In this document: positions 23,452 through 58,903 of the stretch, piece by piece
Position numbering within the stretch: position 1 is the first letter of the stretch
Layout of the letters: each line of letters begins with the position of its first letter
Origin: Zanthoxylum bungeanum
Taxonomy: Eukaryota; Streptophyta; Magnoliopsida; Sapindales; Rutaceae
Direction of reading: 5' to 3'
Assembly (NCBI GenBank): GCA_019454045.1
Contig: SKCR01025361.1
Location: 186,001-250,000 of the forward strand
DNA: 64,000 nt
Made by a program: the position numbers and the translations under genes
The notes under the pieces: generated by a model
What the model was told of the DNA's origin: nothing
Databases searched by the model: none
Seen by the model: only the letters and a program-made list of their open reading frames with translations

Positions 23452-23520
23452 TGATGAATACTAAAAAGTGTATATTTATTAGAAGATAAGTTAATCATTT
23501 TACACTTATAGTTTCACTAA

Positions 23521-32974: not shown

Positions 32975-32977
32975 GTC

Positions 32978-32995
32978 TGGTGACTCCACTGGGAT
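32978..32995 (+). other. Tat-like primer-binding site
   Basis: TGGTGACTCCACTGGGAT lies three bases after the LTR. The form is known from Tat/Ogre elements. I do not assign the tRNA firmly. Confidence 0.65.
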
Positions 32996-35338: not shown

Positions 35339-35371
35339 CCCAACTACCGTGCCGTACCACCACCAACCTAT

Positions 35372-37052: not shown

Positions 37053-38470
37053 AAACTCCGACGGATGAGACCAGAATGGGCTGAGAAAGTCAGAGAGGAA
37101 GTTAAGAAACAGATAGATGTGGGGTTCCTGGAAGTAGTAAAGTATCCTGAGTGGTTGGCTAATATAGTGCCGGTGCCAAAGAAAGACGGGAAGGTCAGAA
37201 TGTGTGTGGACTACAGAGATCTCAACAAGGCTTTTCCGAAAGATGATTTTACTCTGCCGCATATAGATGTTCTGGTTGATAGTGCGGCTTTATCTGCTAT
37301 GTATTCATTTGCAAATGGGTTTTCAGGTTACAATCAGGTCCTTATGGCTGAGGAAGATAAACACAAGACTGCCTTTGTTACTGAGTGAGGTACTTATTGT
37401 TACAAGGTGATGCCGTTTGGGCTCAAGAATGCGGGAGCTACTTATCAACGGATGGCCACTACAGTATTCCGTGACTTGATGCACAAAGAGATTGAAGTGT
37501 ATGTGGATGACATGATGGTGAAATCAGAGACAAGAGTTGGGCATATTGAAGCACTGGAAAGGTTCCTTCAGAGAGTTGACAAAGACAACCTACGGCTAAA
37601 TCCCAAGAAATATGTGTTTGGGGTGACATCAGCGAAATTGCTTGGTCATACAGTGGAAATGGGCGGAATAGAGGTAGATTCTGAGAAAATCAAGGCAATC
37701 ACAAAATGCCAGCACCGAAGACTGAGAAAGAAGTCAGAGCATTCCTGGGGAAGATTCAGTACATCAGTCGGTTCATTGCCAAGTTGACATCAGTGTGTGA
37801 GCCTATCTTCAAGCTGTTGAGGAAAAATCAACCGGTAAAGTGGAACGAGCAGTGTCAAGCAGCCTTCGACAAGATCAGAGAGTACTTGGTAAAGCCTCAT
37901 GTATTGAAACCTCCGAGATTGGGCAGACCTTTGATATTGTACTTGGCCGTAGAATCAGAAGCACTGGGGGCAATGATGGTACAAGCAGATGAGACAGGGG
38001 TAGAACATGCAGTTTACTATCTGAGTAAGAAGATGCTCCCGTATGAGGCCCGGTATCAGGTAGTAGAGAAGATCTGTCTCGCAGTGGTATGTGCTTCTAG
38101 AAATTTACGGCATTATTTCCAGTCATACAAGATCCAGGTAGTGGCAAAGGAGAATCCTCTGAAATATCTGCATTCAGTGCCTTCTCTAGAGGGGAAATTG
38201 GGCAGATGGTTAGTATTGCTGACAGAGTTTGACATTGAGTATCTCACCTCCAAAGTGATCAAAGGGCGAGCAGTAGCAGAGTTTCTGGCATTGCAACCTG
38301 TTGATGGGGATCAGTATAAGTTTGAATTTCCAGATGAAGAGATCCAAGCAATAACAGTTCAGAGATGGAAGATGTATTTTGACGGAGCAGTAAATTACAA
38401 GGGAGCCGGAATTGGGATCGTGATAGTGACCCCGTGGGAGAGACCTTTCCTTTGGCCAAGAGGTTGACAT
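37053..38470 (+). pseudogene. Tat-like pol: reverse transcriptase and RNase H
   Basis: RT has PEWLANIVPVPKKDGKVRMC, VDYRDLNKAFPKDDF and SFANGFSGYNQV. In the last, motif A reads A-N-G, so the first catalytic Asp is lost. GLKNAGATYQRM and YVDDMMVKSE follow, with the DD present. TGA at 37386 replaces Trp, and a frameshift lies near 37705. The Gypsy RNase H runs through ESEALGAMMVQ and YEARYQVVEKICLAVV to about 38300. Next comes the start of a second RNase H, KMYFDGAVNYKGAGIGIVIV (about 38368-38430), with a frameshift near 38450. Confidence 0.87.
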
Positions 38471-38950
38471 TCAGAGTAACTAACAACATGGTCGAGTACG
38501 AAGCATGTGCTTTTGGTTTGACATCATTGATAGCCTTGAAGGCCGGGAGTGTGGAAATCTACGGAGATTCTATATTGGTAGTCCAGCAGATGCGAGGAGA
38601 ATGAGAGTTGAAAGAAGAACGGTTGAAACCTTAACTTTTTCACCTCAGAAAGTTGGCACAGGTTATCCAGATTGTAAGTTTCAGCACTTGCCGAGAGAAG
38701 AGAATCAGATGGCAGACGCACTGGCTACACTTGCAGCAACTTGGGAAAATCCAGAAAAGTTAGTGATGAGACCGTTAATACTGACGACAGCAAGCAAACC
38801 TGTTTATGAGATAGAAAGAATTCTAGAAGTAGAGGTCGATGATGGTAAACCTTGGTATCATGACATTAAGATGTATCTGGAACATGAGGAACTCCCGGAA
38901 GGGGCAAGCAGAAAAGACAGAATAGCCGTTCAGAAGTTAGCTTCCTAATA
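38471..38950 (+). pseudogene. Tat-like pol: second (archaeal-type) RNase H, remainder
   Basis: Plus-strand frames give VTNNMVEYEACAFGLTSL (about 38478-38530), VEIYGDSILVVQQMRGE (about 38551-38600), and after another shift HLPREENQMADALATLAATW (about 38684-38745). The D-E-D pattern (FDG, EYEA, YGDS) and position between the Gypsy RNase H and integrase match the additional RNase H of Tat/Ogre elements. That lineage placement is established knowledge. Confidence 0.8.
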
Positions 38951-38989
38951 TGTGATTTTGAAAGGGGAACTATACAAGAGGCAAGCAAA

Positions 38990-40097
38990 CGATATTTAGT
39001 TGAGGTGTTTGAGGAAAGAAGAAGCTCAACATGTAATGGAAGAAGTACACGCCGGGGTATGTGGTCCGCACATGAACATGTTGAATTTGTCCCGTAAGAT
39101 AGTGAGACAAGGTTTTTATTGGTCAACCATGGAAACAGACTGCGCGAAGATGGTAAAGCACTGTCATGATTGTCAAGCACATGGTAATTTGAATCACTTG
39201 ATGCATACAGAGTTGCACGGGTTGTCAGAGCCGTGGCCTTTCTCAGCATGGGGAATTGATATGATTGGAGAAATTTGACCGAATGCATCGAATGGTCATC
39301 GCTTCATAGTAATGGCAGTAGATTACTTCTCGAAGTGGGTGTAAGCCGAATCATTCCGCAATGTTACAGCAAAACAAATGGCAAAGTTTATAGCTCAGAA
39401 CCTCATTTGTCGGTATGCTATGCCGCATCATTTAGTGACAGACAACGAAGTTCAGTTTCAAGGAGAGATGAAGGCAATGTTGCAGAAATACGGTATAGGC
39501 CACCACAAGTCATCACCGTACAGGCCACAGGTAAATGGGGCAGTTGAGGCAGCCAACAAGACTATAAAGACGATTTTAGCCAAGATGACAGAGAACTGCA
39601 TAGATTGGGCCGAGAAACTACCATATGCTTTGTGGGGGTACAGAACATCAGGATGAACAGCAACAGGGGCCACACCTTACTCTTTGGTCTATGGAATGGA
39701 AGCAGTATTGCCAGTAGAGGTGGAAATACAGTCTATGAGGGTATTAGCAGAGGCAGAATTACCGGAACAAGAGTGGGCCGCACATAGGTTTGATCAGTTA
39801 GCACTATTGGATGATAAGAGAACGAAGTCTCTGTATCACATGCAGTTGTATCAGAAGAGACTAGCCCGAGCATTTAACAAGAAAGTACGCCCCACCAAGA
39901 TCAGAAAGGGTGATTTGGTACTTAAGCAATCAAGGCCGTCGACGACAGATCCAAGAGGAAAGTTCAGACCTAACTGGGAAGGACCTTACATAGTGCAAAA
40001 GGTAATGAGAAATGGAGCAGTGAAGCTATCAGACTTGGAGGGGAACGAGTTCACCGAGCCAATCAACGTAGACAGATTGAAACAGTACTTTGCCTGA
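38990..40097 (+). pseudogene. Tat-like integrase
   Basis: Zinc region: EEVHAGVCGPHMNMLNLSRK and HCHDCQAHGN. Catalytic core: AWGIDMIGEI (D), LVTDNEVQFQ (D; the usual G after N is E), and PQVNGAVEAANKTIK (E). It continues to RPNWEGPYIVQKVMRNGAVKL and ends at TGA 40095-40097. Stops: TGA about 39278, TAA about 39344, TGA about 39654. All three catalytic acids remain. Integrase joins element ends to target DNA. Confidence 0.87.
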
Positions 40098-40269
40098 GGG
40101 AGAGAAGACCAGGCAGTCACCACGGGAATTGGCAGAAGACCTAACCCAACAAAATAAGAAAATCATTCATGCATACACATAATATTGCATTCTCTTCATG
40201 TTTGTTTTGTGTTCGCAGGTTCGAAGAAAGGAGAAAGCGGCAGAAATGAGCCAAGCAGGGTCAACACAA

Positions 40270-40640
40270 TTTCAGTTTTTTGGGGATGAGTACTAAGGGG
40301 CGAGGCCCATATCAGTTTGGGGGCGAGACCCATATCAGCTTGAGGGCGAGGCCCATATCAGCTTGAGGGCGAGGCCCACATCGTCAGCAATTCTGGCATG
40401 CGTCCCAGGGTCGAGGTACCCCTGTTGACAGTTGCAGTTCCGGGATGCGTCCCAGGGTTGAGGGCCCACTGCATCATCAGTTGTAGTTTCGGGATGCGTC
40501 CCAGGGTCGAGGGCCCACTACATCATTTGTTCTAGGGCGAGGCCCTCATTTCCAGCGGTATCGGGATGCGTCCTAGGGTCGAGGTGCCCCCATTGTCGGT
40601 TGCAGTTATTGGGATGCGTCCCAGGATCGAGGTCCACTGC
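40270..40640 (+). repeat. Minisatellites between pol and the Tat-like 3' LTR
   Basis: First block (about 40296-40382): four units of about 25 bp built on GGGCGAGGCCCATATCAGCT. Second block (about 40390-40640): five units of about 55-65 bp built on GGGATGCGTCCCAGGGTCGAGG. Both are GC-rich against AT-rich surroundings. No ORF is supported. Confidence 0.85.
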
Positions 40641-40742
40641 AGCACCAACTCAGCTCGAGGCAGCAGACGAGCCAGGTAAGTGAAAATGCATTGCATAACT
40701 TTGATAGGATTGTTCAAAGTCACACACTGCACAAGTCCCATC

Positions 40743-40757
40743 AAAGTGGGGGCGACT
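40743..40757 (+). other. Tat-like polypurine tract
   Basis: AAAGTGGGGGCGACT ends directly at the LTR start TGTTGG at 40758. It would prime plus-strand DNA synthesis. Confidence 0.8.
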
Positions 40758-43700
40758 TGTTGGACCTCCGTTTAGAGCACCTTTGGCCCAAAGAAAAACC
40801 TGCAAACCTTTTAACCTTGGCCCATAACCCTTGCCACCCACCTAAGCCCACTCACCAAACCAACACAACACCTAGCCCACCAAGAGAGGCCCATACGCCC
40901 ATATCACCCTAAATTACACCCAAATTAAATCAAATATTAATTAAATTAAACATTATCTAAATAAAATATTAATTAATTGATATACCAAATTAAATAAGAC
41001 ATAAAATATAATTATACCAAACTAAAATATTGTAACTTCCTAACTTAAAATATTATATACTAAATTAAAGAAATATTATGCCTAATTAAAATAATCATAA
41101 CCAATTAAAAATATTGACTTCCTAATCTAACAAATTGTATTCCTAAACCAAGCCGATCAAATATTCAACCTTCCTAATTCACCAAAATTCCCCCCCTCAA
41201 TCCATTGATTTCCTTATCCAACACCAAATCAAATCCTCTCTTTAATGCCAAAATCCCTTCTTTGTGAGACAAGGAGAAGCCCTAGCCCTTCTCTATATAA
41301 ACAACCTCTAACCAAGACATGCACTTCCTTCACAAGATACAACTCACACGCAAATCACAAGAAAAATAGCAAACATTTCTCTTCATCTTCTCTCTCCATA
41401 GCCGAAAACAACTCACACACAAATCACAAGAAAAATAGCAAACATTTCTCTTCATCTTCTCCCTCCATAGTCGAAAACATCACTCTCCTCAACCCCTCCA
41501 TTGCCAAAAAATTACAGCCCCTACAACCATCAAAACAGCCCCTAATCACCACTGAAAACCAGCCTCATACACCCCCCAAACATCACCAAAATTCCCCCAA
41601 AAACAGCAGCTGCATCACCAAAATTTACACCAAAAACTGCACTGTTTCACACGCCCAAATAGCAGCAAAAACACCTTAAAACACCCCCTTAAATCACCTA
41701 AACCAGTAACAAAAAAAACTGCACTTTTAATCCTTAAGATAATCACAAAAAACTGCACCTAAAACCCCTAAAAAAACACAAAACAACAGCAGTTTTGAAG
41801 ACCTGAAACAGTAAGCAGAAAATACAGAGGAAAAAGCAGCAAAACGGAGGTCAAACAGTGAGCTAAGACGCTAAACCAGTGAACCAGAGAAGTTGAGGAG
41901 CTTTAACCCTTCCGATCTCCGTGAAACGCAAGTCCGCAAGTCAGCAAAAAAGGTTAGACCTGAGGGTATTTTTCACACTCGTTTTCAGTTTTATTTTTAT
42001 TATTTATTGAGTACTGTTCGCATGATTATTATGTTAAAATGCATGTTGTGGTCCTTGAGTAGATAAATATGCATGTATTACGAAATATTATATGTTGTGG
42101 CCTTGGAATAAAATGAAAGATGTGTCAACTCTCGTGGTATATCGGATGGAAACCCGGAAATAAATTTCATAGCCGATTCCGAATGGACGGTAGTATGATC
42201 TGTACTCGGGATACAACTCCACGTACCGCTTGAGTAAACGGCACATTCTTTTGTTTTATGTTGCTTTGATTTATTTATTATTCGTCATTTAAATTCCGCA
42301 TGTTATTTTTTTATATGCATGATGTGATCGAGCGCATGCGCTTAGTAAGTTGGATTAAAGGTCCCCTATTCTGAGGGGTTACAATCCTTTACCACGATGC
42401 TTTGCCGCCCCGATTAATGTATATTCGGTTGAATGTAAGATGTGTTCAATCGGGTATACGAAGTCCGATGTTATTGTCTTTATTTTTATATGCATGATGT
42501 GATCGAGCACATTGGCTTAGTAAGTTGGATTAAAGGTCCCCTATTCTGAGGGGTTACAATCCTTTACCACGATGCTTTGCCGCGCCGATTAATATATATT
42601 CGGTTGAATGTAAGATGTGTTCAATCGGGTATACGAAGTTCGATGTATTGTCTTTATTTTTATATGCATGATGTGATCGAGCGCATGGGCTTAGTAAGTT
42701 GGATTAAAGGTCCCATATTTTGAGGGGTTAAAATCCTTTACCACGATGCTTTGCCGCGTCGATTGGTGTATATTCGATTGGATGCGAGATGAGTTCAATC
42801 GGATACGTGAGGTCCCACATTGTGGATTTATTTTTCTATGAATGTGTTGCATGCATCAGGTCTGGTTCCGTTCGAACGTGTTCTCGAATGCCACACGAAC
42901 GTGAACCTTCTATTTACCGTTCGAACGTGTTCTCGAACGCTACGCGAACACGCATGCATTTTCTTAGTTTCATCATGCATCAAGTCTGGTTCCGTTCGAA
43001 TGCGTTCTCGAACGCTATACGAACGTGACCCTTCTGTTTACCGTTCGAACGCATTCTCAAACGCTACGTGAACGCGCACGTATTTTCTTAGTGTTTCATG
43101 CATCAGGTCTGGCTCCGTTTGAACACGTTCTCGAACGCTATACGAACGTGAACCTTCTGTTTACCGTTTGAATGCGTTCTCGAACGCTACGCGAACGCGC
43201 ACCCACTGAACTGAGTCCTTTTCATCAGATTTCGTACATAATTGTTCCTAGTATCTATCCCTTCGTTTGATGAACCTGATTGCTTCTCTGTATTACGCAA
43301 GATTATGTAGGTGTCGTTCATCAGTATTCCCCACATGTATGAGTACGATGTGTTTATTAACTTGTATGCTTGCCGTATGCTAATTTATCTTTATGTATGC
43401 AAATTGAGACATAGATTACATGCAAATAGGCTGTATGCAAATTCGGATATGTGTTACATGTAAATTTAGATGAACTTGTTGATGTATGCATCCGAACTTA
43501 GGGGTAAATCATCCTTGGAAATATGTTGCTAAGGCTTGGTTAGATTATTGCACAAATCATTTTATTACAAGTGGCATAAGTAAGGGACCATTCTGAACAC
43601 AACGGTTTGAGGTATTCCCTTGCGAGGGGTGAGTGCGGCCTTAAATCTTTGTCCCGGTTCACACCGGGTAGCGACTCTATTATTCTCTGGTTTAGTCCCC

Positions 43701-43775
43701 CGAGGGCTACTCCGTACTCCCAACCGGGCCGCGAACCCGGAACAACATGCGTCGCCCAGTTTCTGTGTTCCCACA
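40758..43775 (+). repeat. Tat-like 3' LTR (3018 bp)
   Basis: Nearly identical to 30061-32974. It has three rather than two CGTTCGAACG-rich 125-bp units (42858-43205), which accounts for most of its extra length. It ends CCCACA, followed by ATACA. Confidence 0.92.
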
Positions 43776-44757
43776 ATACACTTTCTGCAAAACTTGCGAA
43801 AATTGTCAAAAGTTGGGATCTATTTCAAAAAGAAACATGATGCCTTTAAATCCCATCCTTGTCATCGAAATATTTGATTGTTGGGGGATAGATTTTATGG
43901 GCCCATTCCACAATCCTTTGGATTTTTATATATTTTAGTTGCAGTCGATTATGTTTCAAAATGGGTCGAGGCAATTCCTTGTCGGAACAATGATCACAGA
44001 ACTGTGATCAAATTTTTAAAAGAAAACTTATTGAGTCGATTTGGAATTCCTCGGGCCATAATAAGTGATGGAGGTAAACACTTTTGAATCCTTAATGAAA
44101 AAGTATGAAGTCACACACAAAATTTCCACCTCTTATCACCCTCAGATAAATAGACAAGTAGAATTAGCAAATAAGGAAATTAAACAAATTCTAGAAAAAA
44201 TGGTTAACCCAAATCACAAAGATTGGTCTCTTCGACTAACTGATGCACTCTGGGCATATCGAACAGCTTTCAAAACATCCTTGGGTATGTCTCCCTATCG
44301 TCTAGTTTATGGAAAACCTTGTCATTTGCCTGTAGAACTTGAGCATAAAGAATTTAGGGCTATTAAAGCATTTAATTCAAACCTTGAAAATGCTGGTCAT
44401 GAACGTAAATTGCAACTAAATGAAATTGAAGAGTTAAGGAATGATTCATATGAAAATACGAAAATTCTTAAAGCCAAAACTAAAGCCTTTCATGATAGTC
44501 GAATTTCACGAAAAATATTTGAAGTTGGTCAAAAGGTTTTGCTTTATAGTTCTCGTCTACATTTATTTCCTGGAAAGTTAAGATCCAAATGGAGTGGCCC
44601 ATTTATTGTGAAACATATTTACCCATACGGGGCTATTAACATTGAGAATCCTAGGGACGGTGATGTATTTAAAGAAAATGGACAGCGTCTGAAACCCTTT
44701 TTGGAGTACTCAAAATTTCAAGAAACTTTTTTCCTGTCAGACCCAATATACCTTGAT
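43776..44757 (+). pseudogene. Athila-like integrase, remainder
   Basis: The first five bases, ATACA, are the right target copy. TFCKTCENCQKLGSISKRN completes the zinc domain. The core has CWGIDFMGPF (D), IISDGGKHF (D) and [17 protein letters not shown] (E). It continues to [16 protein letters not shown] and stops at TGA 44758-44760. Frameshifts lie near 43930 and 44080. The catalytic triad is retained. Confidence 0.88.
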
Positions 44758-44937: not shown

Positions 44938-45177
44938 ATGGAAGAAACTCTTGCAACCCTCCATAAATATTTTCCTGCACTTCCCCGAAATGCTCTGATT
45001 AAAATTTACAAAGCCCGCACAGAAAGATTGAGAATTCTTATGATTCATGGTATTCCTAATGATTTTCGTTGGGTAATCGAAGCAAGGGTTCGTTTGGCAG
45101 GTGAGTCACATGACTCCTTCATTCCTTACATGCCTGGTTTAGGGAAAATCACCTATTCTAAAAAACGAAGAGCTAAA
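44938..45177 (+). pseudogene. Athila-borne Cys-rich ORF, 5' exon-like part (interrupted by Copia-3)
   Basis: ATG at 44938 opens a frame of 80 codons up to the Copia-3 insertion. It lies 178 bases after pol. It is rich in Arg, Lys and aromatics (LPRNALIKIYKARTERLRIL) and ends in a basic patch, YSKKRRAK. The frame continues in phase at 55032 once Copia-3 and one CTAAA copy are removed, giving 182 codons in all with no other lesion. I do not recognise a family firmly. Its position is where Athila elements often carry an env-like ORF, but it has no membrane segment. Confidence 0.65.
45173..45177. repeat. CTAAA target-site duplication of Copia-3, left copy
   Basis: CTAAA directly precedes TGTTGG at 45178. 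The right copy is at 55027-55031. Confidence 0.95.
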
Positions 45178-47159
45178 TGTTGGACAATTATGACCCATAG
45201 CATCACTATTAATACAGATCATGGTGTTATTGTACAAATTAACTATGTAACAAAGGAGATTGCACTCTTATCATTTGTGATTAGATCACCTAGATGTATA
45301 AATGATAGGAGGTCCCTATGATTTGTTCTTGGATGGAGAATGATATGAGACAGTATCAGTCCACGAAGGATAAATCATTAAATATCCCTAGTCAGAGTAT
45401 TATCGAGATTGGACATCGATAAATACGTAAAAGACTAGTATTACACTTGTGCGCGTTGTGAGGGCACAACGACATAGTTCTCATATATTTGGGTATAGGA
45501 TACTCATGCAAGTGTAATAGGAGGTTGTGTTTCACCGATGGTACGGGAAACAACTTTGCTCTGGATAGACCCCCTCGGAATTCCATTGGTAGTATGACTA
45601 TGTGTCTATGGAAGTCCGAAATCAGGGTAGGTGTATTTGCTCTTAACCTGAGACTTGCACCGCTAATACTTGCGACAATCAATATACTTTGGTTGAGGTC
45701 GTCCAGGGCTTTAACAGGTTCTGTGTAGGCCAATGCTGGGTATATTGAGAATCGTAGTGTGTTGGGTGTGATGTCAAGACGGAAGTGTCACTCCAGTCAT
45801 ATGGAGATGATGGTCACGTAGGATACGGGACTGGTTCTCTTAAATGCTGCAGCTATCGGGATATTATGACAAGGTCATGTTTATTCGATTATAGAGACTA
45901 GTCACTAGACATCCGACATTTGCTTCGTACGGGGCAGACACAATTCCAGCCCCAGGCCTAGCACGTGATTATTTGATACTGGACAAAAATACGTAATACT
46001 ACGTATACTACGCCTGATATAGATCCTTTATTCCTGTAAGGATGTTTCCGGAGAATTGGGTAGGCATGGCGCTTTGCTAGAGGCCAACCTTGTCTTGTAA
46101 ATCGGTAAAACATAGTACGAGGTACTTACGTGTTCGGATAGTCCGACGAACGAATTTACTGCCAACATATCCGGGGATCTCATGGGTCACTTCCAAAAGA
46201 TTCACCGATGACGTATGACTCGCACTCTAAATTAATCTGGGATTAATTAGAAGAGAGAGAAAATTAATCTGGGATTAATTGCGGAGATATTTTATCTGGG
46301 ATTAAATATCAATTAAAGAGAGATAACGATTAATTTGGAATTAATCGATAAATTAATATATTTGATATATTAAACGAAATTAGATTTCGACGTGGAATTA
46401 AAATTAGATTTTAATTCGGGCGAACGAATTAATTTAGAATTAATTCGTTAGCGACGTGAATAGTGATTTCGCTAGGCGTAATCATTTAATTACGACGCAA
46501 CGGAAAATTCGTTAATTTGGAATTAGTGAACCCGAGCCCGGGATTATTTGAGAGCGCATTCGCATTTCTAATTCGAGTGCGGCACGCAAGTCAAATAAAG
46601 AGTCAAATCGCTAGTCGCAACTAGCGTCACATCATTCGTCAATCAAGTGATGGATGTCTTTCACTTTGAGTGATTGACCCAAGTCACTATTCATGATTAT
46701 TTGTTTTTGGAAAATAAATAAAGTGTATTAGATACACTTTCCATCTAACACACACATCTCTCTCTCCTCTCTTTCTTCTTCCTCTCCACACGCCCAAGGG
46801 GCTCAAAAACCTTCTGGTTTTGCAGTTGCTGCCGAGATAAAAGGGAAGCACTAGAGTGGGTTTTATGGCAAAATCACAAGTGCTAGCACACTTACGAGAC
46901 ATGCGAAGGTGATAGGGAAGTCCACTCATGAGCCGGGAATCGTTCGACGAAGCTTGGAGCTTGACGAAGGACCCAAATCGAGCCAAAACAGTGAGCTTCA
47001 CACAGCTCACTATCGAACCAGTGAAGAGGCAGAAAGTTGAGTTTTTGTTGCCTCCGCGGTTCTCAACTGCTCGATGTAAGTATTCCGCAACTTCTTCGAC
47101 TTGTATTCGCACTTGATTCATGCTTATTATTGATCTTGGGACCTTAATAGAAACCAACA
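45178..47159 (+). repeat. Copia-3 5' LTR (1982 bp)
   Basis: Starts TGTTGGACAATTATGACC and ends GAAACCAACA. It lacks a 91-bp stretch present in the 3' LTR (about 54482-54572). The palindrome array lies at 46230-46480. A further hairpin, arms AAAGTGTAT/ATACACTTT around TAG, lies at 46720-46740 next to AATAAATAAA, a possible polyadenylation region. Confidence 0.93.
46230..46470. repeat. Palindrome array in Copia-3 5' LTR
   Basis: Consecutive inverted repeats with 3-base centres: 46230-46248 (TGG), 46262-46280 (TGG), about 46286-46310 (TGG, one mismatch), about 46327-46346 (TGG), about 46351-46372 (TTG), 46375-46389 (TAG), about 46395-46418 (TAG), about 46423-46450 (TAG; arm AACGAATTAATT perfect over 12 bases). 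Centres are T-N-G, the complement of C-N-A in the minus-strand copies. Confidence 0.85.
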
Positions 47160-47160
47160 A

Positions 47161-47177
47161 TGGCATCTAGAGCAAGG
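47161..47177 (+). other. Copia-3 primer-binding site (degenerate iMet type)
   Basis: TGGCATCTAGAGCAAGG starts two bases after the LTR. It resembles TGGTATCAGAGC with changes. Confidence 0.7.
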
Positions 47178-49560
47178 TTTGAGCATGAAAAAAGTTTAGG
47201 GCTTAAAATTTGGGTAATTTGTATTTGAGCATGATTTGAATGAATTGGATGTTTGAGTATGCTTAATACATGTTTAATTGAATATTGATTGGATCAATTT
47301 CATGAATTTTTGTTTGGAACAATTTTTCCCCAAAATCTTAGCTTGGCCGAGAGTTTGATGCCCTAATTAGTCTTGGAATTTTGATTTTTTGTTCATTGGA
47401 TTAATTGGAATCATTCGGGAATGTTGATTTATGTTGATTTGGGATTTAATTGGATTGAAACCAAATTGGAAATAAATTTCCCACCATTGCCGAGACTTAA
47501 GCATGTAATTGGGTTTGATTTTAATCAAAATGTGTTGGACATGTGATGATGAAAATGAGCATGATTAATTATGTATATTGATGTTTTAGAAATATTAATT
47601 GGGGTAATTAATCATTTATACACTTTGGTAATTAAATTATGAATTTGGAATTTGGTAATTTGATTATTTGGGCCTTAAAATTGGATTTGGGCTTTAAGTG
47701 TTGTAATTGGGCTTGTTGGGCTTTGTTGTACAAAGTTGGGTTTACGAAAAATTGGTTGGATCCAATTGAGCCCAAAACCACTTCCATAAAGCCCAAATGC
47801 GACTTAATGGACCTTTAAAGTTTAATTGGGCCTAATGGGCCAAAATTGATTTTGGCTTATTGGGGTAACTCCGGATTGGACTTTGGTTATTCGGTTTGAC
47901 CCGAGTTGACCAAAAGTCCACGCCTTAAGAAATTAATCAAAAGCCCATTGGACTTTAATTAAATTGACGTTGGACGTTAAATCGGGCTTTGAGACCCGTT
48001 GTAATTAAATTTGGAATTTAAGTCGTAAAAGTTGATTATTAAAGTATAGTCTTTAATTTGGAATAATATATGCGAATTAGAATTGAATGCATATTAAATT
48101 GGATTTAATAATGTAGTTTAATTTAATTCGAGAATTCGTACTTTAAGTACTTATTCGTAAAACGAGTTTGACTCGAACAAAATCAAATCGTTGTTTGAAC
48201 ATTGGATGGTCAATAATTATCAGATTAATTAATTTGATTAGATTGATTGATAACATGTTTGTGTGAATACATGGTTGTGATGCATGAATAATGTATATCG
48301 AATGGATATTAGATGGGTGGGACAATTTTAGAAATTGTTGTAATAAATTCGATTTATTAATTGCACCTGTGTGTCCAGCCTTATTACCTCCTCATTCTTT
48401 GTATTCTCTTCTCACCTATTCCCCTCAATGTAAATGAGGTTTCTTTAGAACTGTAGTTGTATGTAACGGGTAGAAGTAAATACTTGTGCTAGCGGGAGAG
48501 AGAAATGGAGAGATTGATCTAGGATCAATGTGTTAAAGTATCCATCCGCATATCATTATTATTTATTTATATGTGCTTTATTATGTGTTTAGAATGCATG
48601 TTTAAGGGTTGTATGATGATGAGACCTTAACAAAGATAATAAATTGGTTGCCAATTTGCACGCGAAAAACCCTCAAACAATATTAAGTGTTTTTCCTTCC
48701 ATTGAGTGATTCTCACTCAAGATCCGAGACTGGCATTGGCTTGTTGGCCAAAGTCAAGGCCTTTGTCCGTTGAGGATGTGTTTAAATCACGAAGGCTTTG
48801 TTCCATATTGGTGTCTTGTCCAAGTTGTGGTTTGTTGGCCAAATTCAAGACCACTTCTTGTCCATCGACATTGATTACGAAGCTTTCCATGGTCAATGGG
48901 TCGCGCTTAACTGGGATCACTAAGTTTGTTGTGCCAAAGCCAAGACTTAGTTGATTCAGAGGAAAAAGGTTAGGTAATACATTGGATGTATTGGCATATA
49001 TAAGATATATATTTCGGACTTGGATGTCCCCCTACCGGATCTAGGAATTGGATTGGATCCAATCGATCTTAGAGATCTACCTAGTTAATTATCATACAAT
49101 TTGTTGGCCAAAGTCAAGATTGTGTGATATTTAACGGGATCCTAGCCCACTAGGAAACGCGGTTTCCCGAGTACTCGACAGAGGGTTAGAGGCACACCGA
49201 AAAATAGTGGGAGGCAAGAATTGAATTTGTAATACTCGTTCAATTACTCACCATACGCGCTCAACAAATATCAATTCGTCAAATAAATTAAATTTTAGTT
49301 GGACTAATATTTAAATTGTTGTTTTAATAAATAGTTGGACTATATATTCACACTATTCATTTATAGTTGATTTTAAAATTGGATTATAGTAATCAATATA
49401 ATTGAATTTAATCTATTAAATTATAGTTGATTAAATAGTTGGACTATTGTAATCATTATAATAATTAGTACCTTAATCGTTGATTAAATAGTTGGACTAT
49501 TAGAATCAAGATTAAATTGAAAGATTTACATTTAAAACATAATCATAAGGAAAATGTATT
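47178..49560 (+). other. Copia-3 untranslated leader
   Basis: Same layout as in Copia-1. A TGGGC-rich block lies at 47660-48000. TTGGCCAA-type motifs lie at about 48742, 48831, 48929 (variant TTGTGCCAA) and 49101. No supported gene. The open frames at 48706-48954 and its complement are chance frames over the motif region. Confidence 0.75.
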
Positions 49561-52500
49561 TAAATGGTTTTAATTTTCAAATTGGGAATAATTTCAGGAT
49601 GGTCCTGGAAAATAATAAGTTACTTTATTTGATAAAATAACATATTAAGCCTAAGCCCGGAGTTAAGCAAATAGTGGAGCATAATCTTTGGAAGATTTAT
49701 GTGATGAGAACTTTAGTGCTTAATCCATTATACTTACCGCAGTAGAAGTAGACTCCTTATTTTGAATCAGAACTAAGGATTAGATCCTTAAAATATGATA
49801 AAGGAATTGAAGGATCTTCATAAATCTATCTTTAGATTTTAGAAGTACTAAATTGCAATAAATAACTCTTGGAGAGTTAATGACTATTCTCAAGGAGATA
49901 AAGTCAAACTTTGCAATTAGGCAGGTGGCGCAAGGCGCACCTTACTTCGATATTCTAGAAACCCGAGGCTTGGCCAAAGGCTATCGGAATGTGAAAAAGG
50001 GCAAATGCAAAATCATTATAATCTTTTAGGAAGATAAAGGTCATATCCCAAAATTTCTGCCTAAATTGTGGCAAACGGGAACGCGGAAGCGTGACTGCCG
50101 TTTGGACAAAGCAGACATAAAGGAATTGAAGACGAGCAAGGCTCTAACTTCAAATATGATTGTCATAAATATATGTTCACTACTAGTATTAAAATTAGAT
50201 TTTAGATACTTAGTGTGATATATATATATATTGATGCTCAGGAATCTGCTATGAGTAGGATACTGACTTCAATTGAGATTAATCTGCGATTCGGAAACGG
50301 GACAAAATTCGCTGTTTTAACCGTAGATACCTAATTTTAGGAACTACCCTCAGGTGTGTACCTAAATTTGGAAACTGTTATAATGTAACTAGTTTGACTA
50401 GATACATTATCTCTATATCAGTGTTTGACCGCTGCGGGTGAACCTTTATATTCTAGAACACTAAAGTGTTTTATTATACAAAGAAGATATTGAGATATAC
50501 ATATTAGATGTGAATAACAGAATTTATATTTTGAATATAAATAAATCTCAAACGTATAAAATGACAAACAAACAGCTCATACTGATTTGATCAGATGAAA
50601 CTAATTGTGGCATTGTTGTATGGGACACAATTAAACAAGACTCGTATATCCACACTTTTGAAGAGTGGATACTAGGACTGGTTTGATTCCATTCAAATAA
50701 AGTCGACGAATCTAGTTTATTAGGCAAAGTGCCTAAAACACTATTTACTTGGTAAAAGTGTAAATGCCACTGATCTGTTAGCCCTAGTTCATAGTGAAAC
50801 AAGTGGGACCATGTCTAGCTAGGCTAGATGTGGATATGAATATTTTGTGACCTTACGGATGTGGCATCGCGTTATGGTTGTGTGTTTCTTTTGAAGAAAA
50901 CAAATTGGAAACTTTTAAGTTTCGACATGAAATAGACAATCAGATCGGCTAAAGTATTATACCGTCACGGTAAGACCGTAATGGAAAATACTTAAGCAAT
51001 AAGTTTCTCGTATACTTGAAAGAGTATGGTATTCTTTCAATGATGACTTCTCCCGGAACACGTCATCCTGACGGTGTTTCCGAACTGAGTAACCGAATTT
51101 TGTTGGACATGATAAGGTTAATCATGAGTCGCTCTGAGCTACCATTTCCTTCAATGGATACGCATAAACAGTGCATAACTTATTTTGAATAAGGTTCCAT
51201 TAAAATCTGTTTGACAGATTTCATACTAGATATGAACGGGAAAGAAACCGGGTTTCTCATTCCTGAACATTTGGGATGCTAGGCATAAATTTGGATGATA
51301 CCCAACTAGAACCCAAATTGGATAAGTGCCAAATGTAGGTAATCCCAGGGATACCATAAGTATTGTACTTATACAACTCACTAGAGAACAATTAGATTGT
51401 TGCTCACCATGCGGTTTTCCTAAGAGGAATACCGATATGCAGTGGTAAGTGGGAGGATAGTAAAACTCGATGAAAATCAGAGTGATACTATTCAAGGCAC
51501 CGATTCCTAATGGAACACATAAATAGTTCTCAAGGTTTGAAAACTATTACCATTAATCTTCAAATACACAAGAACCGCGTAGATCTTAGAGAGTCAGAAA
51601 AAAACCTGGGGTATGGGTTTCTGATCTCACCTCATAAAGATGTCTATCTTATTGAGGTATAACAACTGACTACGTATGAGGACGTGATACAAGGTATCGA
51701 CTCCCTATTATGGCAAAGTGCCAGAAGTCCGAAATGGATTCCATGTATATCAACAAGTTTGGATACTAGTTGATGTACCGCAAGGCATTGTGCCTATTGG
51801 TACTATATAAGTCTTCAAGGAAGACGTACATGGATGGCAACATACCAACGTATAAAGCTAGGCTTTTAGCGGAAAGGTATCGTTATCAACATTGTGTTGA
51901 TTACGATTCAACCTTTTACCTGTTGCCACGGTAAATCCATTTGGATAATGCTTGCTAACGCTGCATGTTTCATTTATGAAATATGTCAGCTTAACGGGAA
52001 AATCGCTTTCCTGAAAAGGAAACCTTTTGGAGGATGTTTAAAACATCCTGTCGGTTTTGTCGTACCAAAACAAGCAAACAAGGTTTGCGGGTTATTCGAT
52101 CCATGTTTGGATTGAAGCAAGCATAGGTTCTTGGAATTATCGTTTTGATGTAATCATAATAGTTTATGATTTAATTCAAAACGAAATGATTCTTGTGTAT
52201 ATAAGAAGGTTTGTGGGAGCGCACTAACAGTGGTTGTCCTATAAATAATGATAATATGTCATTTCTTGGAAATGATATTCCCATAATAATAATCGGTGAA
52301 AGCTTGGCTTTCGAAAACTCTCCGAGAAATCGTACATTGAAAAATGTACGCGACCTGGTGTCTCATACGCTTTGAGCATATGGATTCAAAAACAGGCCAA
52401 TCCAAGTGATAGTCACTGGATTGATGTTAAGAACATCCGTTAGTATCTTAGAGATATAAGGATGTTGTCTTAATCTATGGAGATGGAGAACTTGAAGTGA

Positions 52501-52940
52501 CTGGGATCACTGTAGCAAGTTTCCTAAACCGATAAGACGACTATAAGTCACAAATGGTACTATATAGTTTAAATAACGGTACATTGAGCTGCAAATCTTC
52601 CAAGCAAGATACTGTTACCGTATAAACAACAAATGCGGGTTATTGCTGCAGCTGAGGCGGCAATAGAAGCTTTCTGGGTCGATAAACAAATCTAATTAGA
52701 TTAGATATAATTATGTTAGCAGCTGAGCTAGGCTTGAGCACAAGTTAAAGAATTAATGGTCTCATCAACGATCCATATACATACTTCGATAATCATCTGA
52801 TTCGTTCGGATCATACATCGTGGCGATGTGATGATCGAATAAATCGCATCAGATGATAATCATGCAAATCCACTGACGAAAGCATTTCTCAGCAATTTGA
52901 GTCAACCGTACATAGTTCGGGTGTAAGACACTCGAGTGAC
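49561..52940 (+). pseudogene. Copia-3 gag-pol remnant
   Basis: Collinear with Copia-1 gag-pol but full of stops and frameshifts. Landmarks: a CLNCGKR-like zinc knuckle remnant near 50055-50100; protease and GAG-pre-integrase near 50250-50700; integrase near 51050-51150, where residues like MSRSELPF are visible; RT near 51900-52200 ending in DSCVYIRRFVGAH-like residues; RNase H near 52610-52690 (AAEAAIEAFW). No frame exceeds about 90 codons, so it cannot code for its own transposition. Confidence 0.8.
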
Positions 52941-52941
52941 T

Positions 52942-52953
52942 GGCTATAGGCCA
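52942..52953 (+). other. Copia-3 polypurine tract
   Basis: AAGTGGGAGAT lies directly before the LTR start TGTTGG at 52954, as is usual for plant Copia elements. Confidence 0.85.
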
Positions 52954-55026
52954 AGTGGGAGATTGTTGGACAATTATGACCCATAGCGTCACTATTTGTA
53001 CAGATCGTGGTGTTATTGTACAAATTAACTATGTGACAAAGGAGATTGCACTCTTATCATTTGTGATTAGATCACCTAGATGTATAAATGATAGGAGGTC
53101 CCTATGATTTGTTCCTGGATGGAGAATGATATGAGACAGTATCAGTCCACGAAGGATAAATCATTAAATACCTCTTGTCAGAGTATTATCGAGAATGGAC
53201 ATCGATAAATACGTAAAAGACTAGTATTAAACTTGTGCGCTTTGTGAGGGCACAACTGCATAGTTATCATATATTTGGGTATATGATACTCATGCAAATG
53301 TAATAGGAGGTTGTGTTTCACCGATGGTACGGGAAACAGCTTCGCTCTGGATAGACCGCATCGGATTCCATTGGTAGTATGACTATGTGTCTATGGAAGT
53401 CCGAAATCAGGGTAGGTGTATTTGGTCTTAACTTGAGACTTGCACCGCTAATACTTGCGACAATCAATATACTTTGGTTGAGGTCGTCTAGGGCTTTAAC
53501 AGGTTCTGTGTACGCCAATGCTGGGTATATTGAGAATTGTAGTGTGTTGGGTGTGATGTCAAGACGGAAGTGTCACTCCAGTCATATGGAGATGATGGTC
53601 ACGTAGGATACGAGACTGCTTCTCTTAAATGCTGCAGATATCGGGATATTATGACAAGGTCATGTTTATGCGATTATAGAGACTAGTCACCAGACATTCG
53701 ACATGTGCTTCGTACGGGGCAGACACAATTCCAGCCCCAGGCCTAGCACATGATTATTTGATACTGGATAGAAACACGCAATACTACGTATACTACGCCT
53801 GATATAGATCCTTTATTCCTGTAAGGATGTTTCCGGAGAATTGGGTAGGCATGGCGCTTTGCTAGAGGCCAACCTTGTCTTGTAAATCGGTAAAACGTAG
53901 TACGAGGTACTTACGTGTTCGGATAGTCCGACAACCGAATTTACTGCCAACATGTCCGGGGATCTCATGGGTCACTTCCCAAAGATTCACCGATGACGTA
54001 TGACTCGCACTCTAAATTAATCTGGGATTAATTAGAAGAGAGAGAAAATTAATCTGGGATTAATTGCGGAGATATTTTATCTGGGATAAAATATCAATTA
54101 AAGAGAGATAACGATTAATTTGGAATTAATCGATAAATTAATATATTTGATATATTAAACAAAATTAGATTTCGACATGGAATTAAAATTAGATTTTAAT
54201 TCGGGCGAACGAATTAATTTAGGATTAATTCGTTAGCGACGTGAATAGTGATTTCGCTAAGCGTAATCATTTAATTACGACACAACGGAAAATTCGTTAA
54301 TTTGGAATTAGCGAACCCGAGCCCGGGATTATTTGCGAGTGCATTCGCATTTCGAATTCGAGTGCGGAACGCAAGTCAAATCAAGAGTCAAATCGCTAGT
54401 CGCAACTAGCGTCACATCATTCGTCAATCAAGTGATGGATGTCTTTCACTTTGAGTGATTGACGCAAGTCACTATTCATGATTGATGGATTGATGTGTGT
54501 TGATGGAAGTGGTTGAAGCCATTAATGACTTGATTTTTGAAATCAAAAATTTGGTAAATCATTTTATTTGTTTTTGGAAAATAAATAAAGTGTATTAGAT
54601 ACACTTTCCATCTAACACACACATCTCTTTCTCCTCGTTTTCTTCTTCCTCTCCACACGCCCCAGGGGCTCAAAAACCTTCTGGTTTTGCAGTTGCTACC
54701 GAGAGAAAATGGAAGCATTAGAGTGGGTTTTGTGGCAAAATCACAAGTGCAAGCACACTTACGAGACATTCGAAGGTGATAGAGAAGTCCACCCATGAGC
54801 CGGAAATCGTTCGACGAAGTTTGGAGCTTGACAAAGGACCCAAATCGAGCCAAACCAGTGAGCTTCACACAGTTCACTGTCGAACCAGTGAAGAGGCAGA
54901 AGGTTGAGTTTTTGTTGCCTCCGCGTCGCTCAACCGCTCGATTTAAGTATTCCGCAACTTCTTCGAATTGTATTCGCACTTGATTCATGCTTATTATTGA
55001 TCTTGGGACCTTAATAGAAACCAACA
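52954..55026 (+). repeat. Copia-3 3' LTR (2073 bp)
   Basis: Collinear with the 5' LTR with scattered substitutions and the extra 91 bp. In the array, the TTTTATC/GATAAAA palindrome (about 54072-54096) is perfect over 11-base arms here, while the 5' LTR has one mismatch. It ends AAACCAACA before CTAAA. Confidence 0.93.
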
Positions 55027-55340
55027 CTAAACAAATGGGTGTGTGTTATAAGTGTGCACGTTGTACGTGCAACACTCGTTGTCGTTCTTTAGGAATGGTG
55101 TCTGATAATCGTGAGGATAAAATACAATTCATTAGGGATGGACTGAGTAAGGAGCCTTTTGATGATATATCATTGACTCTTGAGACGCATCCTAGTGGAT
55201 ATGTTCATCGTGAAATTCTCAGATTATGCACACAATTTCATAAAGAAAGACAACCATACAGTCTCGGGAATTTGACTTTAAAATACCATGTTTGCCAATT
55301 TATAAGAAAATTGGATGGGAAGCCTATCCTCGACCCATAG
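55027..55340 (+). pseudogene. Athila-borne Cys-rich ORF, 3' part
   Basis: Begins with the right CTAAA copy. From 55032 the frame continues from 45177 and encodes a tight Cys cluster, CYKCARCTCNTRC (C-x2-C-x2-C-x-C-x3-C), right after the basic patch in the other part. An acidic/polar C-terminal half follows (EDKIQFIRDGLSKEPFDDI) and the frame stops at TAG 55338-55340. A basic stretch plus Cys cluster suggests metal and nucleic-acid binding. This arrangement recalls small Cys-rich proteins of some plant RNA viruses, but that likeness is weak and unconfirmed. Confidence 0.6.
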
Positions 55341-55619
55341 AGGGCATTCAAGCCGTTACTGGACGTAAAACCAGAGGAAGATGTGAGCCACAATCACAAC
55401 TATGAGTACATGTTATTGCATTGATTTTCTTTACTTTAAATTACTGTTCTCTTTTACTTTTTGCCGATAGTATCTAACATTTTTTATTCACGATCTATTT
55501 TTCTGATAGTGGCCATTTTGCAGATATTAGTGCATTTCTCACTCACCCTTTTCAGGATATATAAATTCAGCTCGTCATTTCCATTTCCTCAACACATCTA
55601 GCTAAGAGAGGCAGCACAT
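55341..55619 (+). other. Spacer between the Cys-rich ORF and the LOG-like gene
   Basis: No gene. AT- and pyrimidine-rich. ATATATAAATTC near 55557 is a possible TATA-like word about 60 bases before the LOG-like ATG. I cannot tell whether it is used. Confidence 0.4.
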
Positions 55620-56266
55620 ATGTAGATAACTTCAAAACGACGATTCACTAATATCTGTGTATTTTGTGGAACTAGCTCGGGAACTAAACCAGAATTTGTT
55701 GAGGGAGCACGAGAATTGGGTAGAGTTATGGCAAACATAAATATGCACTTAGTATATGGCGGTGGAAATCTTGGATTGATGGGGTGTATTTTAAAAGCTG
55801 TATATGAAGGTGGAAGTCAAGTTTTGGGAATCATCCCAAAACCTTTAACAGAAAGCCACATCATCGGAAAATCAAATGGAGAAGAATGTATTGTCCCAGG
55901 TATGTCTGAAAGACTACTGAAATGATCAATCATGTTGATGCTTTCATTGCTTTACCAGGTGGGCTCGGAACGTTGGAAGAAATATTCACTGTTGCGTCAT
56001 GGGCAAACTTGAATATTCACCAAAAACCTATTGGGCTATTTAATGTTAATGGATTTTTCGATTTTCTTTTTGTATTTCTTGAAGATGCTAAAAGAAATGG
56101 GTTTATTTCAAAACCGGTAAGAGATATCTTCCTAACTGCACGAACAGCTGATGATTTAATTGATCAACTTTTAGCTTATGAACCAAAAATGGACCCTATT
56201 ATTTCCAAGTTGAACTGGTCTGGTAACGATCTTGGAAAAAAAACGCAAAGTAAACTTGGACCTTAA
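55620..56266 (+). pseudogene. LOG-like gene (cytokinin riboside 5'-monophosphate phosphoribohydrolase family) inside the Athila-like element
   Basis: LOG enzymes cleave ribose 5-phosphate from cytokinin nucleotides to give active cytokinin. Visible in order: ICVFCGTSSG (N-terminal strand and loop), LVYGGGNLGLMG (nucleotide-binding loop), QVLGIIPKPL, then MSERLLK, DAFIALPGGLGTLEE (the signature PGGxGTxxE) and KPIGLFNVNGFF, with a C-terminal helix to TAA at 56264-56266. Length is about 215 residues, as in plant LOG proteins. There are no introns, unlike the multi-exon LOG genes of plants. Lesions: the ATG at 55620 is followed at once by TAG, and one base is missing at about 55921, shown by the 1-base overlap of frames at ATGA. 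Everything else is intact. It lies 280 bases after the Cys-rich ORF and just before the polypurine-like region of the element, so it is element cargo. Confidence 0.85.
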
Positions 56267-56344
56267 TCTGTAATCTTTAGTTATGACTGTCAATTTCACA
56301 ATTACCAGGTGATATCTTCTAAACTCTTTCTTTATTTCTTTAAA

Positions 56345-56382
56345 CATTGGGGACAATGTCTCATTTTGGTTGGGGGGAGATA
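56345..56382 (+). other. Athila-type conserved 3' motif with G-rich polypurine run
   Basis: CATTGGGGACAATGTCTCA, then TTTGGTTGGGGGGAGA. A GAGGACAATG...TTTGGGGGG block downstream of the coding region is characteristic of Athila elements. It shows that DNA on both sides of the LOG-like gene belongs to the element. Confidence 0.7.
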
Positions 56383-57495
56383 ATAGTTTAAGAAATAAAT
56401 AATTTTCATGTTTATGTCTGTTTCATTGATGTTAGTTTTTACCGTGTTGTTATTTTGTGTGTAAAAATATATATCCATATATATACACACAAACTAACAA
56501 CAAATTTGTTTTCTAAACCAATTGGAATTTTTGTTCAGAGGTGGCTGTGTAATGAGTTTTCACTCCTGAGACGCATCTCAATATAATTCATAACAAGTTA
56601 TTTATCGTTCCTTTCTTTTTTGAATCATTTAAATTTGTGAATTCTCCATAACATTGATTAAAAATGATCTTTATATGTTCGTCTGGCTGATATTATCAAC
56701 AATATGGTAACATATGACCATGGGTGGTAAGTGAAAATTTTTTAATATTCAGTTCTCTAATTTATTGGAGGTAACACCTAAAAGTAGTGAAATTTCTTAT
56801 TTTGCAAAAAAAAAAAAAAAAAAAAAGAAGAGAAGTTTGAATAAAGTTCGTTTCGTAGCCTTTCTAACCCGAGCAATTAAGTTCGAAGGGGTGTTTTAAC
56901 ACTTAGTACCCTAAGACCAACTGGTCTGGGAATTACTGGCCCAAAGCTCGTTACAAGGGTTAAAAAGAAAGCTTAAGGAAATCGGACACTGTTTATCTGA
57001 GATCTGAGCAATTAAGCCCGTAGGGGTGTCTTAACACCTAGTGCCCTAAAACCAACTGGTTTGGGAGTCACTGGCCCAAAGATTGATATATGGATTGAAG
57101 ATATATTTTAGACACTGATTATTTGATATCCGAGCAATTAAGCCCGTAGGGGTGTCTTAACACCTAGTGCCCTAAAACCAACTGGTTTGGGAGTAACTGG
57201 CCTAAAGTTCGATACATGGATTGAAGATATGTTTATAAATAAACTTTCACTGCCAAAAAAAGTGTAAACTCTAATTTAATATTAGGACAAAAATATTACT
57301 CTCTTTTCAATAAATACCTGTGATATTGTGGGCACAATATATTGATTAATACCTTGTTTTATTAGTATATTGAAGAATGGTAAAAAAAGTACAGGAGAAG
57401 TCATTTATTTGATCATTCAGAAAAAAGAAAACAATTGTTGACTTAGATAAGAATTTTTCTTCCGCTTGAATTACTAGGGACTAGTAATAAGCTGG
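56383..57495 (+). other. Athila-like 3' untranslated region with A21 tract and tandem repeats
   Basis: A run of 21 A at 56806-56826. From about 56866 to 57240 there are three units of about 122-138 bp, each with GAGCAATTAAGCCCGTAGGG and CCAACTGGTTTGGGAGT. Units two and three are nearly identical; the first is more diverged. No gene. Confidence 0.8.
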
Positions 57496-57505
57496 TTGGG
57501 GGGTG
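57496..57505 (+). other. Athila-like polypurine tract at the 3' LTR
   Basis: GTTGGGGGGTG directly precedes the LTR start TGATGAATAC at 57506. Confidence 0.8.
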
Positions 57506-58898
57506 TGATGAATACTAAAAAGTGCATATTTATTAGACGATAAGTTAATCATTTTACACTTATAGTTTCACTAATCCCCTTAAATTGACACATTTGTGTA
57601 AATATTTTAAAGTTATGCTTTCAGTGCTTTTACTGTGTTATTTTATGTTTTTGTCAGGAAAAATACTGCTCGGAAGCTCGACGGGACAAATCAGACATGA
57701 AAAAAATATTTTCTGCCAGCATATCGTAAAATCGGCAAGCATGTCGTAAAATCTGCAAGCACGTCATGACACGTGGAACCTTTACGTCGCGACACGTGTC
57801 CCCAACGTGGCTTCACCATTCTCTGACACGTGTCCACAACATGCATTCGCTAGTCTGGGCGGTGAATTTGCCTATAAAAAGAAGCATCCGATATTAGAAA
57901 TTTTCATACTTTCTTTCCCGATTCCTCTGTAATTCTTGGAGAGAGAGTGTCTTGTTTGTTTATTTACTTAAAGCTTTTTGTAATGTCTTTTTCTTTCAAT
58001 AATAAAAGTACGAATATGTTTTATTACAAAATGAGTAGCTAATTTCTTTTCTGCTGGAGTAAGGGTGAAGCTTTTATAATGAGAACATAGATTAAACTCG
58101 CTTTTATTATAGTAAATAAATTGAAATCTAATGATTAAAACTTGATTTAAATCTAGATTAATTATTGACAATCTTTATACCGCCTTTATGGCTGGTTTTA
58201 TCTTTATACCGCCTTTATGGCAGGTTTTATCTTTATACCGCCTTTATGGCTGGTTTTATCTGTCTACCGCCTTTATGGCTGGTTTTATCTTTATACCGCC
58301 TTTATGGCTGGTTTTATTTGTCTACCTCTTTTATGGCTGGTTTTATCTTTATACATCTTTATGGCTGGTTTTATCTGTCTACCGCCTTTATGGCTGGTTT
58401 TATCTGTCTAATGCCTTTATGGCTGGTTTTATACAATTTTGGCATAATTAAGTACCTTGGTAGGACTTGTTATAGACAAACGGTATCACCGCCTTTATGG
58501 CTGGTTTTATAATTTTGGCATGCTTAGTACCTTGGTCGGACTAATCATTGACAGAAATGACTACCGCTTTTATGGCCGGTTCTTTTTATTGGCATAATTA
58601 ATTCCTGTAATAAATTAAGTGAGTAAAAATGACAATTTATATATTATGATAAAGCGAGATTTCTAAATGTTTAAAAGACTAAAAGTGGATCCCATAACTC
58701 CAACATTTCCTTCTATTATTGTATTCCAACCTAAAATCCTCCAACTACTTCAACAAAGCAAACTTTTCTTTTCCGCATTGTTCAATATTCTACTTTGCTA
58801 AATCTCTTTTCTGTTGATCGACCCCGGACTCACCGAGTTATTTTATTACTTCGACACTCTTATACTTGGGAGTAAAAGACCAGTTTCCGAGTGCGTCA
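57506..58898 (+). repeat. Athila-like 3' LTR (1393 bp)
   Basis: Matches the 5' LTR apart from lacking the 110-bp duplication, having three instead of four G-boxes, and having nine rather than eight minisatellite units (58173-58432). TATA box CCTATAAAAA at 57871. Ends GTGCGTCA before ATAAT. Confidence 0.93.
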
Positions 58899-58903
58899 AT
58901 AAT
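58899..58903. repeat. ATAAT target-site duplication, right copy
   Basis: Identical to 23447-23451. The LINE ORF1 frame (KMDN, then DVECVTVLRKHKGKR) reads through when the element is removed. Confidence 0.95.

Follow-up and report, generated by a model that had tools for sequence, protein, structure and literature searches.

The Athila4, Calypso and Bagy-2 elements carry env-like ORFs, and they resemble the element described here in that an additional sense ORF separates pol from the 3' LTR, with the difference that the extra ORF is env-like there, whereas one extra ORF here is a LOG enzyme by sequence. The abstract of Steinbauerova et al. (2011) is said to report two Athila-like elements similar to LOGL4. 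According to the accessible part of PMC9289625, a YgdH/LOG domain occurs in LTR-element consensuses of two Citrus species and, with a filter off, of P. trichocarpa, and that text cites Steinbauerova et al. (2011) for LOG domains in LTR elements. These elements share with ours a LOG-family ORF inside a Ty3/gypsy element, and the kind is thus already known, so that a LOG gene in a retroelement is not the novel cargo for which it had been taken in an earlier note on this DNA. The element described here differs in being broken, and the accessible part of that report makes no mention of the C-terminal tail, the pocket change or the wide clade described below. A literature search, supplements aside, likewise did not find in print the single wide clade or the two family features, the LxLxL tail and the pocket change, as far as the sources were accessible. 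The same report describes orchid Gypsy elements with an AlkB m6A demethylase, which are similar in that a host-type enzyme domain is fixed in a large gypsy element; the enzyme is a different one and its activity was shown in vitro, whereas the LOG element is known from sequence (PMC9289625, accessible part). Athila4, Calypso and Bagy-2 are named in the accessible parts of PMC7264820 and PMC6317226.

We analysed a window of 64,000 nucleotides from Zanthoxylum bungeanum (assembly GCA_019454045.1, contig SKCR01025361.1, positions 186,001 to 250,000), in which a LOG-fold ORF lies inside an Athila-like LTR retrotransposon with an LTR pair, ATAAT duplications, a primer site and gag-pol (Table 1). 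We think it quite likely that an Athila-like lineage has long carried this ORF as an accessory gene, probably under selection, and that the gene has changed its substrate and location; the local copy is dead. The LTRs and the ATAAT duplications were found outside the LOG gene, as the earlier note had described them. The LTR pair encloses approximately 32.5 kb, and gag, RT, RNase H and INT follow each other in gypsy order within the LTRs, with a 5-bp duplication around them, as in the Athila lineage (Ty3/gypsy, OTA). The outer frame around ATAAT is presumably a LINE ORF, judged by its motifs; the primer site TGGCGCCGTTGCCGGGGA is presumably of the tRNA-Asp type, and the CATTGGGGACAATG...GGTTGGGGGGAG motif is typical of Athila/Tat 3' regions. 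The substitution rates used for LTR dating are 1.3e-8 and 7e-9 per site per year, and the divergence between the LTRs (K2P 0.042 over 1365 aligned bases) would place the insertion of the window copy roughly 1.6 to 3 million years ago (~1.6 My at the first rate and 3.0 My at the second). Pfam did not find a protease family in the element pieces searched, and the nine pieces submitted gave no second RNase H, although broken frames may conceal one. In the accessible part of PMC6317226, tRNA-Asp is listed among non-chromovirus primers, and an additional RNase H (aRH) is a mark of Tat.

Table 1. The Athila-like element, its LOG gene and the insertions nested in it, in positions of the window
Feature	Position	Strand	Evidence or remark
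Target site duplication ATAAT, left copy	23447..23451	.	inside apparent LINE ORF
5' LTR, Athila-like element	23452..24979	+	self-BLAST; contains 29-bp tandem units and a partial internal duplication
Primer binding site TGGCGCCGTTGCCGGGGA	24986..25003	+	sequence, just behind 5' LTR
gag core, Retrotrans_gag	25896..26303	+	Pfam E=4.4e-19
Reverse transcriptase, RVT_1	28250..28996	+	Pfam E=2.9e-28
pol RNase H, RT_RNaseH	29316..29600	+	Pfam E=3.6e-13
Integrase part 1, Integrase_H2C2	29651..29909	+	Pfam E=5.7e-8; cut by nested element
Nested second LTR element, ATACA duplications	29910..43775	.	ends read by eye
Integrase part 2 and pol end	43776..44757	+	aligns to P0121 residues 309-587
Extra ORF part 1, between pol and LOG	44938..45177	+	57% identity over 61 aa to Citrus P0123
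Nested LTR element splitting extra ORF, CTAAA duplications	45178..55026	.	self-comparison and sequence
Extra ORF part 2	55032..55402	+	frame change before GWEAYPRPIEGIQAVTGRKTRGR; GWEAYPRPIEGIQAVTGRKTRGR common to Citrus P0121
Pyrimidine-rich stretch, ends in CAG (to 55555), then TATATAAATTC (55558-55568)	55539..55568	+	echoed before LOG in P0006, P0012, P0067
LOG-family ORF, ~217 codons	55620..56273	+	three lesions: codon-2 stop, two frame changes
C-terminal tail KKRKVNLDLNL and stop	56238..56273	+	basic cluster plus LxLxL
CATTGGGGACAATG...GGTTGGGGGGAG motif	56345..56379	+	sequence
124-nt unit, three tandem copies, 3' untranslated part	56850..57234	+	
Polypurine-like tract before 3' LTR	57491..57505	+	sequence
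3' LTR	57506..58898	+	self-BLAST
Target site duplication ATAAT, right copy	58899..58903	.	outer frame resumes, 19 codons to stop

The homology of the window gene to LOG is far above chance. Its first half matches LDcluster4 (SLOG) with E=2.4e-8 and its second half matches Pfam Lysine_decarbox with E=4.5e-24 and AtLOG3 (2a33) with E=3e-27; the PGGxGTxxE motif of the LOG family is present, and the three LOG motifs that had been read from the letters were confirmed, as were their order and the intronless frame. The number of lesions and the end of the gene had to be revised. Besides the stop at codon 2 and the frame break near 55921, which had been reported as the only two, there is a third lesion, a frame change in an A-run (56236-56243) that hides the real C-terminus, and because it had been missed, the end had been misplaced at 56266. 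After this lesion the frame reads KKRKVNLDLNL to the stop at 56273, and 11/11 of these residues equal residues 207-217 of the intact relative P0001, which is 91% identical over 99% of the query in the protein search and 94% identical over the aligned residues. We rejected a special preservation of this LOG copy: it has three lesions in 0.65 kb, compared with nine in-frame stops and five frame changes, the latter counted by eye, in the 5.0 kb of gag-pol from 25896, and is thus no better kept than its pol. The window LOG is a relic like the rest of the element and no longer codes for a product.

To place this copy, we used 125 relatives, consisting of the best 120 of 7969 matches, closest first, and five of the 11 matches obtained when the search was restricted to proteins much longer than LOG. 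The trees and pocket counts exclude ten of the 125, which are fragments or joined models, and use only the LOG part of three Citrus rows. As cellular set, 50 LOG3-type proteins were picked by hand from 120 listed, 25 of which entered the tree and the pocket counts together with AtLOG3 and AtLOG8. With FastTree (144 rows) all 116 element-type LOGs fall together (SH-like 0.918), apart from the 27 plant LOGs (0.988), and with IQ-TREE (62 of the 144 rows) the 47 element-type rows group with a UFBoot support of 97 and the 14 plant LOGs with 100. The closest relatives thus form one clade, separate from the cellular LOGs sampled (LOG3-type and LOG8). A closer cellular LOG donor may exist, since the cellular sample consists of these two types. 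Among the relatives listed, the named rows of the clade come from Populus, Reevesia, Diplodiscus, Xanthoceras, Paulownia and Citrus; of these, Populus, Reevesia, Xanthoceras, Citrus and Paulownia represent the orders Malpighiales, Malvales, Sapindales and, with Paulownia, the asterid Lamiales. Vertical descent is uncertain because the trees place the Paulownia rows close to Reevesia, and horizontal transfer or repeated capture of the element LOG is possible.

The likeness to canonical plant LOGs (AtLOG3, 2a33; AtLOG8, 1ydh) lies in the fold, the PGGxGTxxE motif and the catalytic pair R99 and E122, here numbered as in CgLOG. The AlphaFold model of P0001 (mean pLDDT 85.2) is confident in the LOG core, and AtLOG3 is the PDB entry closest to it (rmsd 1.1), which gives P0001 the LOG fold. 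In CgLOG, R99 and E122 are catalytic, M96, K100 and E121 lie around the adenine, and M96, H97, K100, E125 and W129 are proposed to lie around the prenyl group; the alanine substitutions tested in the AMP site, S19A excepted, nearly abolished activity, and K100 may or may not have been among them (PMC4979012). Both catalytic residues are retained in the window copy and in P0001, and in 101 of the 116 element-type rows, which were drawn from the best 120 of 7969 matches plus five of 11. The difference from the canonical proteins is that the element LOG is a single open frame in a mobile element, ends in a basic/LxLxL tail, is 41 to 45% identical to them, and has lost three residues, H97, K100 and E125, that every one of the 27 plant LOGs sampled has, as does the Pseudomonas LOG. 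Among the 116 element-type rows listed, H97 is kept in 25 and K100 and E125 in nine each; all three are kept in 9/116 and all three replaced in 91/116, and K100 has become L, I, M or F in 107/116. The window copy keeps M96 and W129, has S, L and T for H97, K100 and E125, and therefore lacks the full proposed cytokinin pocket. Activity is not universal either, because 15 of the 116 rows listed miss a catalytic residue and three Citrus rows have a degraded PGGxGTxxE. It is doubtful, judging from the replacement of the three pocket residues in 91/116 rows, that the element LOGs activate cytokinin. However, the changes in the pocket need not end cytokinin activity, as the prenyl pocket is a proposal and the mycobacterial MmLOG already differs there (PMC4979012, accessible part).

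The reading of the earlier note, that a host LOG mRNA was captured recently and privately and that its product simply raises active cytokinin, is improbable in the light of these data. It agrees with the intronless frame and its LOG motifs, with the catalytic pair in the window copy, with the fold of P0001 and with the nine relatives among the 116 listed that keep the whole proposed cytokinin pocket. However, over aligned residues the window copy is only 45% identical to AtLOG3 and 41% to AtLOG8, compared with 57% to Populus, 58% to a Xanthoceras relative and 50% to Citrus, and one clade spans Sapindales, Malvales, Malpighiales and the asterid Paulownia, which speaks against a recent or private event. 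The prior report in Citrus and Populus elements also argues against it. Plain cytokinin activation is not supported, since all three of the residues invariant in plant LOGs are replaced here, and K100 is an adenine-pocket residue in CgLOG (accessible part of PMC4979012).

The C-terminal tail is the second feature that distinguishes the element LOGs. LxLxL lies within the last 12 residues in 93/125 relatives (the best 120 of 7969 matches and five of 11) and in 0/50 LOG3-type proteins, and in 92 of the same 125 it closely follows a basic pair within the last 18 residues. Where the C-termini are complete, LxLxL occurs in the last 13 residues in 90/111, versus a mean of 15.3 in 1000 tail shuffles, a result that is not a probability because the rows are related. 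LxLxL is one of two plant EAR repressor motifs, the other being DLNxxP (PMC6479872, accessible part), and LDLNL in the window copy and in P0001 thus makes a putative repressor tail. In the model of P0001 the pLDDT is below 50 from residue 204, that is, in the tail.

Tail and pocket can be compared in the 110 rows with complete ends, five of 115 rows being set aside. A changed pocket goes together with LxLxL in 90 rows and with a near-LxLxL in 10, and one row has a changed pocket without LxLxL; eight rows have the cytokinin pocket without LxLxL, and P0030 has the cytokinin pocket together with LxLxL. In the IQ-TREE tree the Xanthoceras type branches first (UFBoot 96; 99 for the rest), followed by P0030 and then by the rows with changed pocket (99). 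This order suggests that the tail may have been gained first and the pocket changed second, or that the tail was lost in the Xanthoceras type, perhaps in very few events.

Whether the gene is of any use to the element has to be weighed against the view that LOG hitchhikes as a passive passenger without benefit and that the apparent constraint comes from young database copies. The broken window copy, no better preserved than its pol, and the Citrus rows with lost active-site residues would fit such a passenger, but relatives whose identity to the window copy is only 52 to 72% (Populus, Reevesia, Paulownia and P0002) still retain the 217-aa frame, PGGxGT and the tail. Furthermore, replacements recur at H97, K100 and E125 from lineage to lineage, whereas the catalytic pair is for the most part conserved, and we therefore give this view only a slim chance. 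Exactly 217 aa are found in 74 of the 125 relatives (the best 120 of 7969 and five of 11), and the element LOG has probably been kept by selection.

Four of the 11 long matches join Athila-type sequence to LOG when aligned to the window: in Citrus sinensis, a single model, P0121, combines RT, INT, a GWEAHPRPIEGVQAVSGRKTRGR piece and LOG, P0123 combines the extra ORF with LOG, and the Acer models P0124 and P0128 have gag-pro and LOG. From the first search, Xanthoceras P0003 has an Athila gag-pro stretch joined to LOG. The other seven (P0122, P0125, P0126, P0127, P0129, P0130 and P0131) show no Athila join; in P0122, a Citrus model, LOG is attached to a BED-type protein, P0125, P0126, P0129, P0130 and P0131 bear other domains, and P0127 has LOG domains only. 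The RT of the window is 74% identical to that of the LOG-carrying P0121 over 221 aa. A Citrus piece KKTGWEAHPRPIEGVQAVSGRKTRGR directly before LOG aligns to window 55271-55402 with 57% over 44 residues, and P0123 residues 742-802 align to 44938-45120 with 57%. The order pol, extra ORF and LOG is thus common to the window and Citrus. The joined models are automatic and show neighbourhood, not a real fusion protein, and the element neighbourhood of LOG is seen in these five models only (two Citrus, two Acer, one Xanthoceras). That the LOG-family gene is part of an Athila-like element has nevertheless stood, given the order shared with Citrus and the Acer and Xanthoceras models that join gag-pro to LOG. 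Its position between a Cys-rich ORF and the 3' motif was also correct, but the Cys-rich ORF is the right part of the split extra ORF. No Pfam match was obtained for the extra ORF in the two pieces searched (44935-45177 and 55029-55337), and no relative turned up in viral contigs scanned with P0001, P0108 and P0039.

We rejected the view that a cellular LOG was retrocopied independently and landed in this Athila copy by chance, which is hardly credible. In its favour are the intronless frame and a stretch of 21 A (56806-56826) that lies some 530 bases downstream of the stop codon of LOG. However, no tight duplication surrounds LOG (55520-55640 and 56230-56400 share no 7-mer or longer), and the A-run is separated from LOG by the 3' motif of the element. 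In addition, Citrus has the extra ORF next to LOG in this order as well, and the upstream stretch recurs in P0006 and P0012.

An old accessory gene of the Athila-like lineage thus remains the preferred reading, and a course of events can be proposed for it. An Athila-like (Ty3/gypsy) lineage would long have carried an accessory LOG between the extra ORF and the 3' LTR. The donor would have been a plant LOG gene, and the gene was probably acquired through RNA because it is intronless; a spliced mRNA may have been captured. Conservation of the protein suggests that active elements have maintained a functional gene. The product would have the LOG fold, in most relatives both catalytic residues, a disordered basic/LxLxL tail and three lost pocket residues, and it could be expressed from the element through its own TATA-like site or splice acceptor. 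The CTCACTCACCCTTTTCAG and GATATATAAATTC that precede the LOG ATG, in this order, might serve as splice acceptor, as TATA box or in both roles, and a YKFS reading at the upstream stretch is found in P0006 and P0012, as N-terminal overhangs, and in Xanthoceras P0067. With its basic tail the product may enter the nucleus, where it might possibly touch the TOPLESS co-repressor, and most likely it would hydrolyse a nucleoside monophosphate, with or without a prenyl group on the base.

A bolder proposal, which we make tentatively and which is on balance unlikely, is that the element LOGs form a neofunctionalised lineage in Athila elements of rosids and at least one asterid, with the catalytic core of the phosphoribohydrolase retained, a swapped base pocket and a nuclear-type basic and EAR tail. 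Through it the element would supply the nucleus with a nucleotide hydrolase that engages TOPLESS and may tune the hormone response or the silencing of the element. A stepwise order for such a lineage would follow from the tree, with the Xanthoceras type, then P0030 and then the rest. Should a gene for a hormone enzyme have been retained over so long a divergence while its pocket changed and a repressor-type tail was added, it would offer a directly testable case of a plant mobile element that acts on host signalling.

Several further observations were made in the window and among the relatives. The extra ORF has a motif LHK.FP.LP.NAL..IYKAR.ER (44938-45177 and 55032-55402) that is conserved in Citrus P0123 and P0121. 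The 29-bp tandem units (ATCTTTATACCGCCTTTATGGCTGGTTTT) occur in both LTRs of the Athila-like element (58171-58459 and 24280-24513). The nested gypsy-like element at 29910-43775 has repeated ends (30058-32972 and 40755-43773) that are ~94% identical in self-comparison, and its RT and INT match P0121 with 37% and 33%, respectively. Related elements, ~76-98% alike, are found in both orientations at 1-15000, 45178-55026 and 61900-64000; judging by their motifs, all of these, the one splitting the extra ORF included, are copia-like. The Citrus entries P0122 and P0123, named 'BED-type' and 'protein kinase domain', contain the Athila-type LOG and are likely chimeric gene models. The Populus entries P0041, P0048 and P0096 are named LOGL10 and have the element-type tail and the changed pocket inside the element-LOG clade, so that this name may mislead, and plant gene models named LOGL10, for example in Populus, may be element genes and not cytokinin enzymes.
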